Positions 12,700-24,960 of a DNA stretch of 32,322 nt are shown here, in pieces; the first letter of the stretch is position 1; each line of letters begins with the position of its first letter. The position numbers and the translations under genes were made by a program. The DNA is from Chlorobaculum sp. (GTDB taxonomy: Bacteria > Bacteroidota > Chlorobiia > Chlorobiales > Chlorobiaceae), in assembly GCA_013334855.1 (NCBI GenBank), contig JAAXWU010000012.1, positions 1 to 32,322 on the forward strand, in the 5' to 3' direction. The notes under the pieces were generated by a model. That model ran no database searches and was not told where the DNA came from. It saw only the letters and a program-made list of their open reading frames with translations.

Positions 12700-13644
12700 T
12701 TGAATAAGACAACAACCCCTATGTTGAAAAAAGCTGAATATCTGGAAGCGAAAGCCGCATTCTCGCAAGGGTTTCAGGCGTTTGTCCAAAACCTGCGTGC
12801 TCATGTGAGCGCTGAAAATGGCGAGTGGACGGTCAAAGGCTTCATCGATATTTACCGGAATATTTACACGATCAGTTCAGACACCAAGATTGTTTCTAAA
12901 ATTCTTGAAATACATCTATTTCCAAAAATTCTTCAGTTTGCCGCAGAACAGGGATATTCGATAGTTCTTGCTGAACACCAGAACTGGTATCCTGACCTGA
13001 GTTTCGTAAATGTTGTTAACCCACAAATAAAGTTTGCAGTTGATCTGAAAACGACGTATCGAGACCCTGCATGTGAAGGGCATGTTAATGGCTTTACGCT
13101 TGGGAGTCATGGTGCGTATTTTAAAAATCGCACTTCATCCAAGAATATTCAGTTTCCGTACGATGATTATTCGGGACATTTTTGTCTGGGCATAATCTAC
13201 AGCAGGCTTGATGCAGTCGATGTTGATGAAACGGAGATTATCAATGTAAAAGAGCTTGATGATGAGCCCGGTAGTATTCAGCAAATTGGCCAGAGGACAG
13301 TTACAACCGTTGATAGTTTGCGTTCTATAACTTCGGTTATCAAGGATTTTCAGTTTTTTGTGTGTGAGAAATGGCAATTGGCAAGCGACCGTCAAGGATC
13401 GGGTAATACAGCGAACATTGGCTCGATTACTGCTATCGATGATATTCTGAAGAGTAACGGTATTTTTGCCAGGCTGGGAGAGGATTGGTTTGATGAGTAC
13501 TGGATGAATTATGGAGTGACAACAATGAGACGTGGCGGTGAGACGATCACGATAAAGCGGCTTGAGGATTTTATCGAGTTTAAAAGTTGTGATAAAAGTC
13601 TTATCGTCCCGGTGGTAACAAAAAGAAAAAGAAGGACTGAATGA
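12700..13644 (+). CDS. EcoRV-like type II restriction endonuclease
   Basis: A homologue of EcoRV (recognises GATATC). The catalytic PD-DxK residues align with identical spacing: Asp99 (in WYPDLSF), Asp115 and Lys117 (in VDLKTTY), corresponding to EcoRV Asp74, Asp90 and Lys92; Glu70 matches EcoRV Glu45 at the same distance. The recognition loop is GSGNTANIGSI, close to EcoRV's GSGNTTNIGSI, so the same or a very similar target is likely. It has 314 residues from TTG 12700 (GAGG about 11 bases upstream) or 307 from ATG 12721 (no ribosome site). EcoRV has 245; the extra length is at the N-terminus, around 170-210 and in the basic tail KRKRR. It overlaps the methylase by ATGA and is AT-richer than its neighbours, suggesting transfer. 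Confidence 0.94.
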   Translation: MNKTTTPMLKKAEYLEAKAAFSQGFQAFVQNLRAHVSAENGEWTVKGFIDIYRNIYTISSDTKIVSKILEIHLFPKILQFAAEQGYSIVLAEHQNWYPDLSFVNVVNPQIKFAVDLKTTYRDPACEGHVNGFTLGSHGAYFKNRTSSKNIQFPYDDYSGHFCLGIIYSRLDAVDVDETEIINVKELDDEPGSIQQIGQRTVTTVDSLRSITSVIKDFQFFVCEKWQLASDRQGSGNTANIGSITAIDDILKSNGIFARLGEDWFDEYWMNYGVTTMRRGGETITIKRLEDFIEFKSCDKSLIVPVVTKRKRRTE

Positions 13645-14582
13645 AGCGAGTTATTACACCACCGATCAAAAGCCAAGGGATCAAAACAAAGCTCGTTCCC
13701 TGGATTCAGGCGCTTGTTCCGTCGGTAAGAGGCCGCTGGATAGAGCCTTTTCTTGGGACGGGAGTTGTTGCATTCAACTCTGGCTTCAAACGGGCTTTGC
13801 TGGGCGATACCAATCCGCATATCATCAATTTCTATAAACAGATTCAGCAAGGAACCATATGGCCAGCACAGGTTCGTTTGTTTCTTGAGTCCGAAGGTGA
13901 GGCTTTACGTCAGGCAGATAACGACGGTTATGATTATTTTAACATTGTAAAGCAACGCTTCAACCGTTTGCATTCTCCTCTCGATTTTCTTTTCCTTTCT
14001 CGTGCCGGATTTAATGGCATGATGCGTTTCAACAAAAAGGGTGACTGGAATATTCCTTTTTGCAAGAAGCCGGAGCGTTTCGCCAAGGCTTATGTGACAA
14101 AAATTGTCAATCAGGTGTATGATGTCGCGTGCCTGATTCAGCCAGAATGGGAGTTCAGGCTTTCAACGTTCGAGTCGTTGATTCTGGATGCTGAAGAAGA
14201 GGATATTATCTATTGTGATCCTCCGTATGCCGGACGTTATGTCGATTATTTCAACGGATGGACAGATGAAGATGAAGAACGTCTTTTCGAACTGCTATTA
14301 GCAACCAAAGCCAAATTCATTTTATCGACATGGCATCACAACGATTACCGGAAAAATGAGATGATCGACCGTTATTGGAACCGTTTCAATCTCGTGACGC
14401 GGGACCATTTCTATCATTCCGGCGGCAAGATCGAGAATCGAAGATCAATTGTCGAGGCGCTTGTTTATAATTTTTCTGCTAATATCCACCAGCACAATCA
14501 CGGTGTCGTACCGAAACCCGAGCAACTGGTGCTTCTCGATGAGCGGGCAGAATACATCGCAGAACAGTTGAGCCGGGCGTGA
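13641..14582 (+). CDS. M.EcoRV-like adenine-N6 DNA methyltransferase (Dam family)
   Basis: A 313-residue methylase that should protect the EcoRV-type site from the partner nuclease. It opens with PPIKSQGIKTKLVPWI (SAM-contact motif X at the N-terminus, as in Dam/alpha-class enzymes), motif I IEPFLGTGVVAFN (about 34-46) binds SAM, LGDTNPH follows, and the catalytic motif IV is DPPY at 193-196. FLSRAGFNGMMRFN and STWHHNDYRKN are shared with M.EcoRV. The start overlaps the nuclease stop (ATGA at 13641-13644), so the two are translationally coupled with the nuclease first. The C-terminus runs about 25 residues past the M.EcoRV end. No C-protein gene is present. Confidence 0.95.
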   Translation: MKRVITPPIKSQGIKTKLVPWIQALVPSVRGRWIEPFLGTGVVAFNSGFKRALLGDTNPHIINFYKQIQQGTIWPAQVRLFLESEGEALRQADNDGYDYFNIVKQRFNRLHSPLDFLFLSRAGFNGMMRFNKKGDWNIPFCKKPERFAKAYVTKIVNQVYDVACLIQPEWEFRLSTFESLILDAEEEDIIYCDPPYAGRYVDYFNGWTDEDEERLFELLLATKAKFILSTWHHNDYRKNEMIDRYWNRFNLVTRDHFYHSGGKIENRRSIVEALVYNFSANIHQHNHGVVPKPEQLVLLDERAEYIAEQLSRA

Positions 14583-20275: not shown

Positions 20276-20296
20276 CCGCAACGTCACTGAAACGAA

Positions 20297-20339
20297 GGCA
20301 GTGCAGGAAGAGCGATAATTCCTGCACTGCCTTTTTTTT
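20297..20339 (+). terminator. Intrinsic terminator of pnp
   Basis: A perfect 13-bp stem (GGCAGTGCAGGAA at 20297-20309 with TTCCTGCACTGCC at 20319-20331) with a 9-base loop is followed by eight Ts (20332-20339). It lies 21 bases after the pnp stop. Confidence 0.95.
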
Positions 20340-20660
20340 GTTGGGTCACGGAAGAATATGTGCCTGTCAGGAGATATGCCTGTTTTCAGGCGGGGCCTGC
20401 ATCGTTGACAAGTATCCGCCGAAGAGCGAGCGAAAAGATGTGTTGGATGAAAAAAAGGGGTGGCACCGTCGCGCTGCATAAACAGCCAGTTACCAACTGA
20501 AACTCGGCACCTTTTTGTCTATTGCGTGGGGTACAGTTCAGTACGGAAACGGCACGATCCATACCGGAGCCTAGAACTCGGAGGGGTGGAAGCCGCAGCA
20601 GACGAGTCGTTCGCCTCAGTACACCACGGAGTGGAGGGAGATTATTGAGGTCAGGGGAAA
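20340..20660 (+). other. Gene-free stretch at the edge of the accessory island
   Basis: About 320 bases between the pnp terminator and the DUF3037 gene. Short frames exist on both strands, but none has a recognisable product, good start context or family resemblance. A GGGGTGGCACCG sequence near 20457-20468 recalls a T-box antiterminator core but has no partner structure. I see no confident feature; it may be decayed sequence at an insertion boundary. Confidence 0.4.
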
Positions 20661-21605
20661 TTAAAATTCGTCAAGCGAGCATTGCCGGTTTTCGGGAATT
20701 GGCTTGAACTGCTGCTTCTTGATCCAGCTTGTAAACTTCTCGACATTTCGCGCTTTCACCTCTTCGTAAACGCTTTCAACATAACGTTTCATGTCAGGAA
20801 CTCGTTGTAGTGTATAGGGTTCACCGTTTACACTTCGTTCAATTGAATGCATAGCCTGTTTTGCCTGCTTGTCTGCAAGTTGCGAGTCGTCGATGATGAT
20901 TTTGCACGCAGGCTGCATGTGCTCACGTTCACCGTCGAAAAGTGAGAGCAGGACTTTGTAAAGAAACTGCGTTTCTGCAATATTTTTCTGGACAGTAGCT
21001 GGCTGCAACTTGAGGTCGATGAAGTTGCCGCAATAAATAGCGCCATTGCCACCGATGAAATCAACGGTGATGTCAGGAATCAATGTATCGGCCTCAAAAC
21101 CATCAGAAGCGAACTTGTAACAGATGTCAAGACGCGCTCCCAGCTCCCGGTACTTCTTTGCATACTTTCGAAATACAGTGCCCGGTTCCTGGCCTCTCAG
21201 TGCCCTTGACCGAGTTTCATGCCCGTCATCGATCAGTTTGCTGTACAGCCGGTCGAACCTCTCCGCCATGACTTCAGAGGGCGATGCCTCTGCTGCAACA
21301 TCGAACACCAGTGGCTTTGGATGAGTAAATCGAATCACCCCGTTCTCATAAGCGGAAAGGTACTCAAGCTGTTTGACATCAAGAGCTTTCGGAGCCTTTT
21401 CGAAAAGCTCAAGCTTCTTGATGGCACTTTCCAGCAAGGAGGACTTACGGATGTTCAGGGCGTTATTGATCCGGTTGATCCGGTTCCGTGAGAAACGCAC
21501 AATCACCTCGCCGCTCTCAGGGCTGACCATGATGAGGCCAATGCCAAAGTACTCCTCACGATGAGGATTCGGTGCGTACTGGACGATGGTAAAATAGGTT
21601 TTCAT
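20661..21605 (-). CDS. DUF3037 family protein, partner of the adjacent HipA-like kinase
   Basis: A 314-residue protein. The N-terminus, FTIVQYAPNPHREEYFGIGLIMVSPESGEVIVRFS, fits DUF3037, where a short strand, a conserved 'R.E..NIG'-type stretch and a further strand are typical. The rest is alpha/beta with no motif I can name; TVDFIGGNGAIYCGNFIDLKLQ and CKIIIDD stand out in the second half. Its gene starts 5 bases after the stop of the HipA-like kinase, so the pair is one operon. The HipA-like/DUF3037 pairing recurs in bacteria as I recall it, but its role is unknown to me; a toxin-antitoxin-like or phage-defence function is speculation. Lower GC than the core genes suggests transfer. Confidence 0.72.
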   Translation of the reverse strand: MKTYFTIVQYAPNPHREEYFGIGLIMVSPESGEVIVRFSRNRINRINNALNIRKSSLLESAIKKLELFEKAPKALDVKQLEYLSAYENGVIRFTHPKPLVFDVAAEASPSEVMAERFDRLYSKLIDDGHETRSRALRGQEPGTVFRKYAKKYRELGARLDICYKFASDGFEADTLIPDITVDFIGGNGAIYCGNFIDLKLQPATVQKNIAETQFLYKVLLSLFDGEREHMQPACKIIIDDSQLADKQAKQAMHSIERSVNGEPYTLQRVPDMKRYVESVYEEVKARNVEKFTSWIKKQQFKPIPENRQCSLDEF

Positions 21606-21610
21606 GGTAT

Positions 21611-22420
21611 CTAAATCTTGGCGTCTTCTAAAAGTTGATGGAAGAAACCGCGAACCAAATCTTTACGGGGCAGCAGAAAACTCCAGACAATTGCCTCTTT
21701 CTCTTGATCTGACAAGCCCCATTCAGCAGGCACCTGACTGACAATTTCATACAACTCCTGTTCTGTGGTGGCCTCTATACGTTTAAGATACTTGCCAATC
21801 TCAACAGAGGCGAACAGACCAGCTTCATCATAGACCTCCCAGAATTGAGGGTGTCCGATAAGCGTATCTTCAAGGGTTAATGAAACAGGGCCGAGCCTCT
21901 CCAATCTTGAGGCGTCATAAGGGTGGTCGTCAAACATGAGAGCATGATCGATGGCCACAAATCTCAGATTATCTGCCTCAATCTCTTGCAAAAGTACATT
22001 GGGATTACGCGGCGTACGATCGATGTTATAAACCCAAAGATCAAACAAAACAATCCCGATCAATGCCTGAGAAGCGGAGAATTTACGAATTTCAGCACCC
22101 TTTATCAAATCAAAGCTGTCGAGTCCCCTTGTGATTCCGTCCAGCATTTGGGAACCGAACCCCAACCCCTCCGGAGGTTTTCGCAAAAATCTGATTCCTT
22201 CGATAGTTTCCGGCACAATTTCCACTAATGCCACTTCGGGAGTCGGAAGATCGAGATGCTCAAGCAGTTTGGCTCCCAGAAGTTCATTGATCACCTGCGT
22301 TCGCCCGTTGCCATAATGTTTAACGTAATAAGTTTCTCCATCACTGCACTCAAACAGACAGGGTACGCTACCGGCAGTTGCCAACTGGCTGATAAATCGT
22401 TCTGTCCTGACTCTTTTCAT
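21611..22420 (-). CDS. HipA-like kinase-fold protein
   Basis: A 269-residue protein resembling the HipA-like kinase group often found beside DUF3037. Kinase-type landmarks: YYVKHYGN with Lys34 (ATP-binding lysine); NELLGAKLLEHLDLPTPEVALVEI (helix carrying the conserved Glu, about 46-68); NIDRTPRNPNVLL at 132-144 (catalytic-loop equivalent with Asp134 and Asn139 or Asn141); and AIDHALMF around 157-164, in the place of the DFG-type metal-binding Asp (Asp158). HipA proper phosphorylates glutamyl-tRNA synthetase; this shorter protein lacks HipA's N-terminal subdomain and its substrate is unknown. There is no HipB-like DNA-binding partner; the downstream DUF3037 gene takes that position. Start is ATG at 22420, with a weak ribosome site. 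Confidence 0.78.
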   Translation of the reverse strand: MKRVRTERFISQLATAGSVPCLFECSDGETYYVKHYGNGRTQVINELLGAKLLEHLDLPTPEVALVEIVPETIEGIRFLRKPPEGLGFGSQMLDGITRGLDSFDLIKGAEIRKFSASQALIGIVLFDLWVYNIDRTPRNPNVLLQEIEADNLRFVAIDHALMFDDHPYDASRLERLGPVSLTLEDTLIGHPQFWEVYDEAGLFASVEIGKYLKRIEATTEQELYEIVSQVPAEWGLSDQEKEAIVWSFLLPRKDLVRGFFHQLLEDAKI

Positions 22421-22486
22421 GCCCGGGAAATTTATTATTACGTCAGAAAGGCGCTATTTGGCAAATAGAATCTGAAGTTCGAGAGT

Positions 22487-22652
22487 TCAGGGGATCAATG
22501 ACTTGGCTGCGTCTTCGTGATCGGCATCAGAATCGAGACGCTTTTCCATTTTAAAAAAATAGACACGTTTGATCTTCAGCACTTTTTCGATTTTCATCTT
22601 TACCGGCTGCAAGGACTTCTTTAAGCGAAGGCTCGGCGGTTCTAAAGCTCAT
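22487..22652 (-). pseudogene. Possible remnant starting like a DUF262 protein
   Basis: From ATG at 22652 (minus) the peptide begins MSFRTAEPSLKEVL, close to the start of DUF262/GmrSD-type proteins (which continue with a '..LPDFQR.W.W' motif that is absent here). The frame then shifts by one base into a second stretch, VLKIKRVYFFKMEKRLDSD, ending at TGA (complement of 22487-22489). This reads as the ends of one or two genes joined after a large deletion. It lies between the SLOG-TIR and HipA-like genes, in a 303-base gap with no other feature I can support. The resemblance covers only about 13 residues. Confidence 0.3.
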
Positions 22653-22723
22653 AATAGTCGTAAGTGTTTAAAGTAGAACATTCTCTTTACGAGAAAGATA
22701 CAGCTTTCTACAATGCGAATTTT

Positions 22724-23743
22724 TTATTCTAATTGCATTTTAGAGCTTATTTTATCGATAAAGCTTTTTATATCTCCTTTTAACTCTAATGGGCTTTTTT
22801 TGTATGTATGCCTGATAAATGGCCCAACATCAGATGGATATTCAACATCTCCTCTACATAACAACATAATCCTATCACTTCCCAGTCTGCCCCAAAACCA
22901 TCCAACCTCAACCCATATATTTTGCCTTGCTCTTCTAGAAAAACGCAAAACATCAACGCCCTTGATATATCCACCCTTATCATCCACCACATTGCACCCT
23001 ATATCATCAGGAGTAATTATTGCTATAGCGCAATCCGATTGAGATGCGAGGCGCTCAAAGCCACCAGAAACAGGCTCTGCCTCCTTAACAACATCACTCA
23101 TCACAATAGGGTCGGAATAAATATTTATTTTATACTTTGGATCTTTTAATATCTTTTTCAGTATTTTCTTATCACCAGAACGGCCATGAATAACAAGCAC
23201 TCTTGGATAGGTCATCAATGACAACATAATTTTATCTATCAACTCATCAATCCAATCATCAGAAACACAAGATGAGGAGGGTGGAAAATCAACTGATAAA
23301 ACCCCCTTGTCAATTTTATTGCGATAATCAGAACATAATTCTTCTGCCGCCCCACCGAAGAAAGGAATCGGAATCAATCTTTTACCTAACATTATAGCAG
23401 TTTGTCCAGCTATATATGTACCATCAGATCCCCCAATAACTATAACCGCATCTGATTCTTGTACACAAGAGATATGAGCTTTAGCCCAAACCTTTGATGC
23501 CGTATGATTCCCAACAGGATTAACACTCTCTTGGCTTTTCGACTTATAACCGTCACTTACAAAAACATCAGCTATTTTATTATTGTTATCACGTGATGTC
23601 CTTGCAACAACAAGCTGGTGTTTTTTCTCTGCCAAACGCTCGCCAATTCTATAACATAATATCTGAAAATACAACTCATTTTTTAGTTGCCACCCGAAAG
23701 AAATTGTCTCTTCACGCCAACTACCTATTACAGCAACTCTCAT
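22724..23743 (-). CDS. SLOG-like/TIR-like fusion protein, candidate NAD-targeting defence effector
   Basis: A 339-residue, very AT-rich gene with an excellent ribosome site (GAGGAG, 6 bases before the ATG) and a TATAAT-like box at 23770-23775. The N-terminal ~170 residues look like a Rossmann-type SLOG domain: MRVAVIGSW at the start, KHQLVVAR, and AVIVIGGSDGTYIAGQTAIMLGKRLIPIPFFGG (99-131), a nucleotide-phosphate loop. The C-terminal half (from about 181) matches the predicted nucleotide-binding TIR-like domain (PF10137 type): PRVLVIHGRSGD, IITPDDIG (242-249), RARQNIWVEVGWFWGRLG (271-288) with a candidate catalytic Glu279, and RGDVEYPSDV. TIR domains of this type can cleave NAD+, and SLOG domains bind nucleotide signals in Thoeris. 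A signal-sensing NADase role is inferred, not shown. Confidence 0.82.
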   Translation of the reverse strand: MRVAVIGSWREETISFGWQLKNELYFQILCYRIGERLAEKKHQLVVARTSRDNNNKIADVFVSDGYKSKSQESVNPVGNHTASKVWAKAHISCVQESDAVIVIGGSDGTYIAGQTAIMLGKRLIPIPFFGGAAEELCSDYRNKIDKGVLSVDFPPSSSCVSDDWIDELIDKIMLSLMTYPRVLVIHGRSGDKKILKKILKDPKYKINIYSDPIVMSDVVKEAEPVSGGFERLASQSDCAIAIITPDDIGCNVVDDKGGYIKGVDVLRFSRRARQNIWVEVGWFWGRLGSDRIMLLCRGDVEYPSDVGPFIRHTYKKSPLELKGDIKSFIDKISSKMQLE

Positions 23744-23782
23744 GTACGCTCCTCGTCTTAAAGGAAATTATTATAAACTTAG

Positions 23783-24208
23783 TTAAAACCCCAGCCCCAT
23801 CTGCCCCTCCTGTTGCTTTAACGTCTTCCCTGTTTTCCCCTTCTTCTCCCACAATCCAGCCGCAACCTCCTCTTCGTGAATCTTGTGATTCAGCGCTAAC
23901 GGGTGTTTCAGCACTTCGCGGCGGGCGGCAGGGTGGAGGGTGAAGCGGGTTCGGTCGGGTTCGGGGAGATATTCTACTTCGTAGAAGTCGTGGCGGAGGT
24001 CGTGGCCTGCCCAGCCGTAGGCTTCGAAGACGGCGTTGTCCATCCGGGTGTGGAGGCTGCGGAGTTTCTGGATTCCGGCGACTGCTTGGTTGATGACGAT
24101 GTTTCCCTGTGTGCGGGCAAGATACTTCCGAAGCTTGTCGGCGGATTTCCAGAGCTGGGTTTCCAGAGACTCCTGTTTGACTTCCTTCTCTTTTTTTGGT
24201 CTTGCCAT
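23783..24208 (-). pseudogene. Chimeric remnant: HsdM-type N-terminus joined to the C-terminus of another DNA methylase
   Basis: A 141-residue frame from ATG at 24208 (minus). The first 28 residues (MARPKKEKEVKQESLETQLW, then KSADKLRK) are the start of a type I restriction methylase subunit HsdM, which normally continues '...AEYKHVVLGLIFLKYI'. From about 24124 onwards the text changes to IQKLRSLHTRMDNAVFEAYGW, RFTLHPAARREVLKHPLALNH and EEVAAGLWEKKGK, which is the end of large BREX/type IIG-like adenine methylases. All catalytic parts (SAM motif, NPPY) are missing, so it cannot methylate. An in-frame deletion joining two neighbouring restriction genes explains it best. The frame is open upstream, but the added residues look non-coding. 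Confidence 0.65.
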
Positions 24209-24507
24209 TTTGCGGATAATTACGCGGATTACTTTCAACGAAATCAGTTCACAAGAAACCACGGCCTTCTGAAATGGAAGAAACCGTTCGTTGGCGACAG
24301 ATGAATCAGCCCCGAACAAACATACTCATCGATGACACAGGGGAAAGAGTAATTTCTTGATGAAAAGACGTATGAACAAATATAATAAACGGCTTGAGAT
24401 TTCGTGAAGTGGTTTTGAGATAAGAGCATACAAACCACTTCCGGCTCATGAACCGAAACGCGAAAGTTCGTCTCAGCCGCGAATGGTGGCGCGGAAGAGG
24501 ATTGCCG

Positions 24508-24650
24508 TATTATTGCTCCGGCAACAATAAATCGCAATCGTCGCAGTTGTAAGATATTGGGCTAAAGCCCTGATTTATTTTGTCTTATCCGCATACCCCG
24601 GACTGAAGTCCAGGGCAATTGTTTAAGAGTTTTAATGGCCGGAGTAATAA
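24508..24650 (-). repeat. MITE/REP-like palindromic element, copy B
   Basis: Inverted relative of 11802-11922. It contains GGGCTAAAGCCC (24559-24570), ACAAAATAA in the linker (on the minus strand), and CCCCGGACT-GA-AGTCCAGGG (24596-24615). This copy has both ends: TATTATTGCTCCGGC on the left (24508-24522) and GCCGGAGTAATA on the right (24638-24649), which are imperfect terminal inverted repeats. It carries no coding capacity; it would need a transposase acting in trans. Confidence 0.82.
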
Positions 24651-24690
24651 AACTATCAATGTCATTCATACACGAAGCCTTTTGTCGCTT

Positions 24691-24777
24691 GTCATTCTGA
24701 ACGAAGTGAAGAATCCAGAACTCTTTATTTTATAACAAGATGGATTCTTCATTACGCTTCGCTTCATTCAGAATGAC
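24691..24777. repeat. Long imperfect palindrome (GTCATTCTGAA-type)
   Basis: The left arm, starting GTCATTCTGAACGAAGTGAA (24691-24717), is inverted at 24741-24777, where the arm is 10 bases longer through partial duplication of the GAAGC-type motif. The 23-base centre is AT-rich. Repeats beginning GTCATTCTGA with GAA-rich arms are widespread between genes in several phyla; their role is unclear. Transcribed, it would make a very stable hairpin. Confidence 0.85.
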
Positions 24778-24871
24778 AGACCATCCGACAGCATCTTTTT
24801 GCGATTTTTTGTGCCCGGAGTGGTCGCCGAACGACCGTTGATAAAATTTTCAGAAAGAATCAGTATGTTCT

Positions 24872-24886
24872 CCCCACACGGTGGGG
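24872..24886. repeat. Short perfect hairpin with nearby T-run
   Basis: CCCCAC (24872-24877) pairs with GTGGGG (24881-24886) across a 3-base loop, with five Ts at 24894-24898. The T-run is 7 bases away, so it is a poor terminator; it could be an operator or attenuator in front of leuS. Confidence 0.35.
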
Positions 24887-24916
24887 TAGGCGCTTTTTCT
24901 CTGTTTTGCGACAGAT

Positions 24917-24947
24917 TTGCAGCTTTGCACCCGTAAGCCATTATAAA
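24917..24947 (+). promoter_or_regulatory. Candidate leuS promoter
   Basis: TTGCAG (24917-24922) and TATAAA (24942-24947) are separated by 19 bases. A start near 24954 would leave a leader of under 10 bases before ATG 24961. Spacing is long and the leader very short, so the call is weak. Confidence 0.3.
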
Positions 24948-24960
24948 ATATAGCAATAGC

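Follow-up and report, generated by a model that had tools for sequence, protein, structure and literature searches.

A HipA-like kinase gene and the DUF3037 gene that follows it in a Chlorobaculum sp. contig probably form a two-gene toxin-antitoxin module for phage defence of the HipAD/PDC-M66 type. Judged by sequence, this pair type is one already described elsewhere in bacteria. What is new is the evidence from repeated loss of the kinase while DUF3037 is kept. The assignment is currently supported by the intact catalytic constellation of the kinase, its near-obligate pairing with DUF3037, the defence-island context of the long form of the pair, and the one-sided kinase loss. A defence or toxin-antitoxin role, with DUF3037 replacing HipB, had been put forward in the original prediction for this region. 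It is the best-supported reading, and pairs of this kind are known as PDC-M66, as DS-6/HipAD, and as the HipA/DUF3037 module of Retron-Sda1.

The gene pair

The window (the complete stretch of 32,322 nt that was analyzed) is from a fragmented genome of 2.55 Mb. The two genes are listed here with their basis.

21611-22420, minus strand: HipA_2 kinase gene (269 aa, ATG start), probable toxin, PDC-M66A (Pfam, PADLOC, alignment, model)
20661-21605, minus strand: DUF3037 protein gene (314 aa, ATG start), probable antitoxin, PDC-M66B (Pfam, PADLOC, model)

The kinase gene is the first of the two and, as had been noticed, only 5 bases separate it from the DUF3037 gene on the same strand, which the ORF coordinates bear out. 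The kinase is matched by HipA_2 (PF20613, E 9e-24) and, over most of its length, by the PADLOC model PDC-M66A (E 2e-12). Its partner is matched by DUF3037 (PF11236, E 6.5e-6, above the cut-off) at residues 5-101 only and by PDC-M66B (E 3e-5) only in its N-terminal half (residues 1-152). A single-sequence search of genome contigs returned only one locus, a relative with 57% identity in a Chlorobiaceae MAG. Plasmid searches resulted in few and distant relatives. Carriage by phages or prophages was considered and rejected: neither protein has a tblastn match in the phage collection, and none was found in viral contigs.

The kinase

Three elements of the active site were located by sequence and alignment.

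22319-22321, minus strand: codon of the invariant N-lobe lysine, Lys34
22004-22027, minus strand: catalytic loop NIDRTPRN, residues 132-139, with the invariant residues N132, D134, and R135
21947-21949, minus strand: codon of the invariant Asp158, predicted to bind metal by analogy with HipA-type kinases

The retention of Lys34, the NIDRTPRN loop, and Asp158 had been correctly recognized; Lys34, Asp158, and three residues of the loop are within the set of seven residues that is invariant across 29 aligned sequences (K34, D127, N132, D134, R135, N141, D158). The structure model (pLDDT 89) has a fold that resembles PI4KII, CtkA, Fam20C, and HipA according to Foldseek, and PDB entries of HipA occur among the matches. 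HipA of the HipBA system has an N-terminal subdomain of about 100 aa ahead of the kinase core. The model of the window kinase opens directly with the strands of the N-lobe, so that this subdomain is absent, as the original prediction had stated. It had also stated that a HipB antitoxin is lacking, and indeed no HTH/HipB protein was found adjoining the kinase. Pfam did not detect an HTH domain in the DUF3037 partner or in the flanking ORFs that were scanned.

No operator palindrome was recognized upstream of the kinase, the inverted repeats of the window being weak and without counterpart at other loci; one inverted repeat upstream of the kinase is common to two related loci. Promoter and terminator counts were not clearly above those in shuffled sequences.

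Kinase loss with DUF3037 retention in the family

Among 86 genomes from the family, 11 full-length DUF3037 genes were found together with only 5 intact kinases (the window, G026, G217, G241, and G254). The kinases of G335 and G291 have a nonsense codon in common (GAA to TAA), and that of G291 is additionally interrupted by a DDE transposase. The 5' part of the kinase gene is missing in G313, G209, and G266. In G233, the kinase is absent and the DUF3037 gene directly follows hsdR. The opposite case, an intact kinase without an intact DUF3037 gene, was not encountered in the 86 genomes. For 6/11 versus 0/11, Fisher's test gives p 0.012 when shared ancestry is ignored; these losses represent about five independent events. 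Short fragments of the two genes, in a decayed state, occur in G001, G175, and G383 (these three with decayed DUF3037 remnants), and in G198, G241:C99, and G291:C5.

Loss of the kinase with retention of DUF3037 is the pattern predicted for a toxin with a required antitoxin. The decayed DUF3037 remnants count against this reading, and the retention of DUF3037 could also simply reflect that kinase loss was recent. A comparison of G291 with G335 resulted in an omega (dN/dS) of 0.17 for DUF3037 and of 0.34 for the dead kinase; we take this contrast as suggestive only, since DUF3037 has threefold the synonymous divergence of the kinase, with its changes clustered, and this suggests recombination.

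The neighbourhood and the pnp-leuS insertion site

20276-24960, no strand assigned: insert between pnp and leuS, holding the pair, a TIR gene, and a restriction remnant (comparison with relatives)
22724-23743, minus strand: SLOG plus CAP12-type TIR gene, upstream of the pair (Pfam/PADLOC)

G002, G003, and G009 have about 120 bp between their matches to pnp and leuS, and the window has 4.7 kb between the two genes. In the sister genome G010, the spacing is 5.9 kb and the insert holds a DUF4011/helicase/MTES_1575 gene of the PDC-S37/Hhe type, which is read in two ORFs. Defence genes have thus settled at this junction more than once; within the genus, it is a recurrent insertion site. The pair is thus in a defence-associated context, made up of the TIR gene, the restriction-modification remnant, and an insertion site that is also used by a Hhe-like gene. 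The neighbouring leuS was considered as a candidate for an aminoacyl-tRNA synthetase target of the HipA-like kind and was rejected: pnp and leuS adjoin also in relatives without the pair, so that the proximity of leuS is uninformative about the target of the kinase.

The SLOG-TIR gene that had been reported next to the pair is real, with a CAP12-type TIR domain at residues 181-313 (E 6e-16) and a weak SLOG match (residues 93-127, E 0.02). The glutamate in WVEVGWFWG is at the position expected for the catalytic Glu of TIR domains, and PDC-S35 models match the TIR portion. A Thoeris or CBASS partner was not recognized beside this gene. It was rejected as a third component of the system, as there is no full-length homologue in 60 other genomes from the class, including the pair carriers G026, G217, and G241.

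The wrecked restriction gene that had been described is found at 23783-24319 (minus strand), where models for DrmD, type IIG enzymes, and DrmMI match across about 80 residues only. This remnant looks chimeric, an HsdM-like N-terminal segment being joined to a type IIG/DrmMI-like segment. The HsdM-like segment is also present at the left end of the G010 insert (L205:2139-2405). Elsewhere in the window (12700-14582, plus strand), an EcoRV-like restriction endonuclease (PF09233, E 7e-111) adjoins a Dam-type adenine methyltransferase, apparently an intact type II system.

Long and short DUF3037 forms in the phylum

The survey covered 394 genomes of the Bacteroidota. HipA_2 was found in 95 and DUF3037 in 86 of these. 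According to two coordinate tables that were compared by eye, 85 of 89 DUF3037 matches adjoin a HipA_2 kinase; those without an adjacent kinase match are G209, G233, G266, and G290:C28. The pairing is far beyond chance.

The open reading frames with DUF3037 are either short (131-200 aa; 66/89) or long (278-385 aa; 23/89), and short forms normally occur once per genome. In a tree of 46 kinases, those with a short partner form one clade (support 97/87), which most of the solitary kinases join, and the window kinase groups with the long-partner kinases. The 135 proteins encoded around long pairs hit 387 PADLOC families at E 1e-8, with type IIG enzymes and the specificity and methylation subunits of type I systems at the top, whereas the 117 proteins encoded around short pairs hit 11 families, with one protein each; as neighbour genes were called as greedy longest ORFs and redundant models inflate the family counts, it is the contrast that counts and not the number. 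Synteny is common within lineages for short pairs. Several long pairs are within type I R-M operons or follow them immediately; they are located between hsdS and hsdR in L082 and L107, after hsdS in L087 and L091, and after hsdR in L075 and L077 (from sequence matches and gene order), with some of the hsdM and hsdR labels resting on phmmer similarity and sequence reading rather than on a per-gene PADLOC assignment. The long form thus sits among restriction and defence genes, while the short forms of about 131 aa are in ordinary contexts and have kinases of a separate clade. The original prediction had named a predominance of unrelated contexts as counter-evidence, and the survey bears this out by half: most pairs of the phylum are of the short form and have ordinary surroundings, but the defence context holds for the long form, which is that of the window.

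It is with respect to these short forms that a housekeeping or regulatory kinase pair outside of defence has to be weighed, comparable to the once-per-genome pairs with short DUF3037 in many Bacteroidota. Their dominance (66 of 89), their usual single copy, the 11 sparsely matched PADLOC families, and the synteny within lineages are in line with such a role. The window kinase is outside the short-partner clade and with the long-partner kinases, its pair is patchy in its own family (11/86) and repeatedly degraded, and the genes next to it are of the restriction and TIR kinds. We thus consider this explanation improbable for the window, although it fares better than the two that are treated below.

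Several further observations were made in the survey. HipA_2 kinases without a DUF3037 neighbour (L104, L099, L101, L105, L108, and others) adjoin ordinary genes in many cases, and the majority group with the short-partner clade or next to it, away from the clade of the window. In the Chlorobiaceae loci L071:3358-5160 and L072:3310-5085, the kinase is immediately preceded by two genes (325-334 and 261 aa) that are read in its direction; neither Pfam nor PADLOC matches the L071 copies. An orphan long DUF3037 gene without kinase, from a different family of the phylum (L086:4178-5925), stands behind a 254-aa gene and a large restriction-like gene, which is similar to one beside the L109 pair.

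The two domains of the DUF3037 protein

21234-21605, minus strand: N-terminal DUF3037 domain, residues 1-124 (Pfam, model, homology to short DUF3037 proteins)
20706-21188, minus strand: C-terminal domain, residues 140-300, PD-(D/E)XK-like, without recognizable active site (model, fold matches)

Profile comparisons (E 7e-7 and 3e-8) show the N-terminal domain to be homologous between the short class and the two long ones. The C-terminal domains of the window's class, which have a conserved DxIGGNG motif (residues 182-188), and of the second long class have no detectable sequence similarity to each other. The structure model of the partner (pLDDT 83) has weak but consistent matches of its C-terminal fold to domains of the PD-(D/E)XK type. 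These are FANCM-FAAP24, MUS81-EME1, ERCC1, and XPF in the PDB (E about 0.09-0.6), and DUF2726, VRR-NUC, ERCC4, and a DUF1828 protein among viral models (E about 0.004-0.2). A (D/E)xK was not found on the strand that follows the conserved D182, so that the domain is probably not an active nuclease. Its identification as DUF1829 was rejected (hhalign E 0.12, probability below 1%), and DUF1829 is not among the Pfam families matched by 26 long partners. Neither HipS nor HipA is among the best 50 Foldseek matches of the partner.

The resemblance to PD-(D/E)XK/ERCC4 nuclease folds and the occurrence of long-form pairs in restriction operons would fit a DUF3037 protein that is itself the effector or nuclease and is merely activated by the kinase through phosphorylation. 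Such a protein would have to do without a (D/E)xK after D182, and full-length DUF3037 genes persist without a kinase. In Retron-Sda1, deletion of DUF3037 is toxic and deletion of the kinase abolishes defence, which is the opposite of what would be expected (PMC12548924). We thus consider this assignment of roles unlikely. That the pair is a dying, inactive passenger in a decaying island is very improbable: the adjacent restriction gene is wrecked, relatives in the family often have broken kinases, and in G001 from the same genus both genes have collapsed, but the window genes are both full length with every invariant residue present, and the tight gene order is kept (a 5-base gap here, adjoining or overlapping frames in relatives).

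Proposed mechanism and significance

For the toxin-antitoxin module that we prefer, the single-domain HipA-like kinase would be the toxin and would phosphorylate an essential host protein. The kinase gene and the DUF3037 gene after it appear to form one operon, and from its relatives the DUF3037 protein is expected to bind and silence the kinase through its DUF3037 domain. The C-terminal nuclease-like domain would probably contact DNA (an operator or DNA derived from a phage) and in this way couple infection to the release of the kinase. Once freed by infection, the kinase would stop growth and thus block phage production. Of these steps, the silencing of the kinase and the final failure of the phage are backed by experiments on relatives.

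A more elaborate version can be offered as a tentative suggestion, with the odds rather against it in its entirety. The long DUF3037 partner would combine an antitoxin head with an inactive nuclease-fold tail for sensing DNA of phages or DNA cut by restriction, and would thereby tie the kinase to restriction operons of type I/IIG as a fallback for cell suicide. After kinase loss, orphan DUF3037 genes would be kept by selection as immunity against incoming copies of the toxin.

A HipAD/PDC-M66 pair is now placed in green sulfur bacteria. The repeated loss of the kinase with DUF3037 being kept is independent evolutionary support for the toxin and antitoxin roles that were seen experimentally elsewhere. 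The split into a long, defence-associated form and a short form in ordinary contexts bears on the use of HipA_2 and DUF3037 co-occurrence as a defence marker. We found no published trigger for such kinase-DUF3037 systems in the literature, and the long partner, with its nuclease-like tail, offers a testable lead in this respect.

Comparison with known systems

The closest solved folds of the kinase are CtkA and PI4KII, which also give weak profile matches, in the case of PI4KII around the catalytic loop; identity in the structural alignments is, however, only about 10-18%. We know of no operon partner that CtkA or PI4KII has in common with the window kinase.

The HipA-type kinase fold is common to HipBA and HipBST. 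The window pair differs from these by the absence of the N-terminal subdomain, of HipS, and of an HTH-type HipB, by having the kinase gene first, and by its DUF3037 partner; a HipBST-type third gene is not present at the pair. A phylogeny of Hip kinases distinguishes partner types including HipB, HipS, Stl-like, and HIRAN; DUF3037 is not among the partner types named in the abstract and early results of that study (PMC8262856).

DS-6, renamed HipAD, is likewise composed of a HipA-related kinase and a DUF3037 protein without HipB, as judged from the published description. In E. coli, the catalytic residue of its kinase is needed for phage defence; a toxin-antitoxin system with a predicted complex has been proposed, DS-6B being composed of DUF3037 and DUF1829 (PMC13092281, where HipAD is credited to Brenes & Laub 2025). 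The window pair is from a different phylum, and its C-terminal domain lacks a detectable DUF1829 match, a viral DUF1828 protein being among its weak fold matches. We treat DUF1829 as a variant feature of DS-6 that does not define PDC-M66, the PADLOC models of which do not name it. The PDC-M66A and PDC-M66B models match adjacent window genes in the same orientation, but the match of the latter does not extend beyond the N-terminal half of the partner.

Retron-Sda1 contains genes from the same two families, and these protect on their own against phage Bas51 (PMC12548924). They adjoin a retron reverse transcriptase and its ncRNA, whereas no reverse transcriptase was recognized among the scanned window neighbours. 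The experiments on these relatives show a need for the kinase (Retron-Sda1) and its catalytic residue (DS-6) in defence and for DUF3037 in preventing toxicity (Retron-Sda1), in line with the roles proposed for the window pair.
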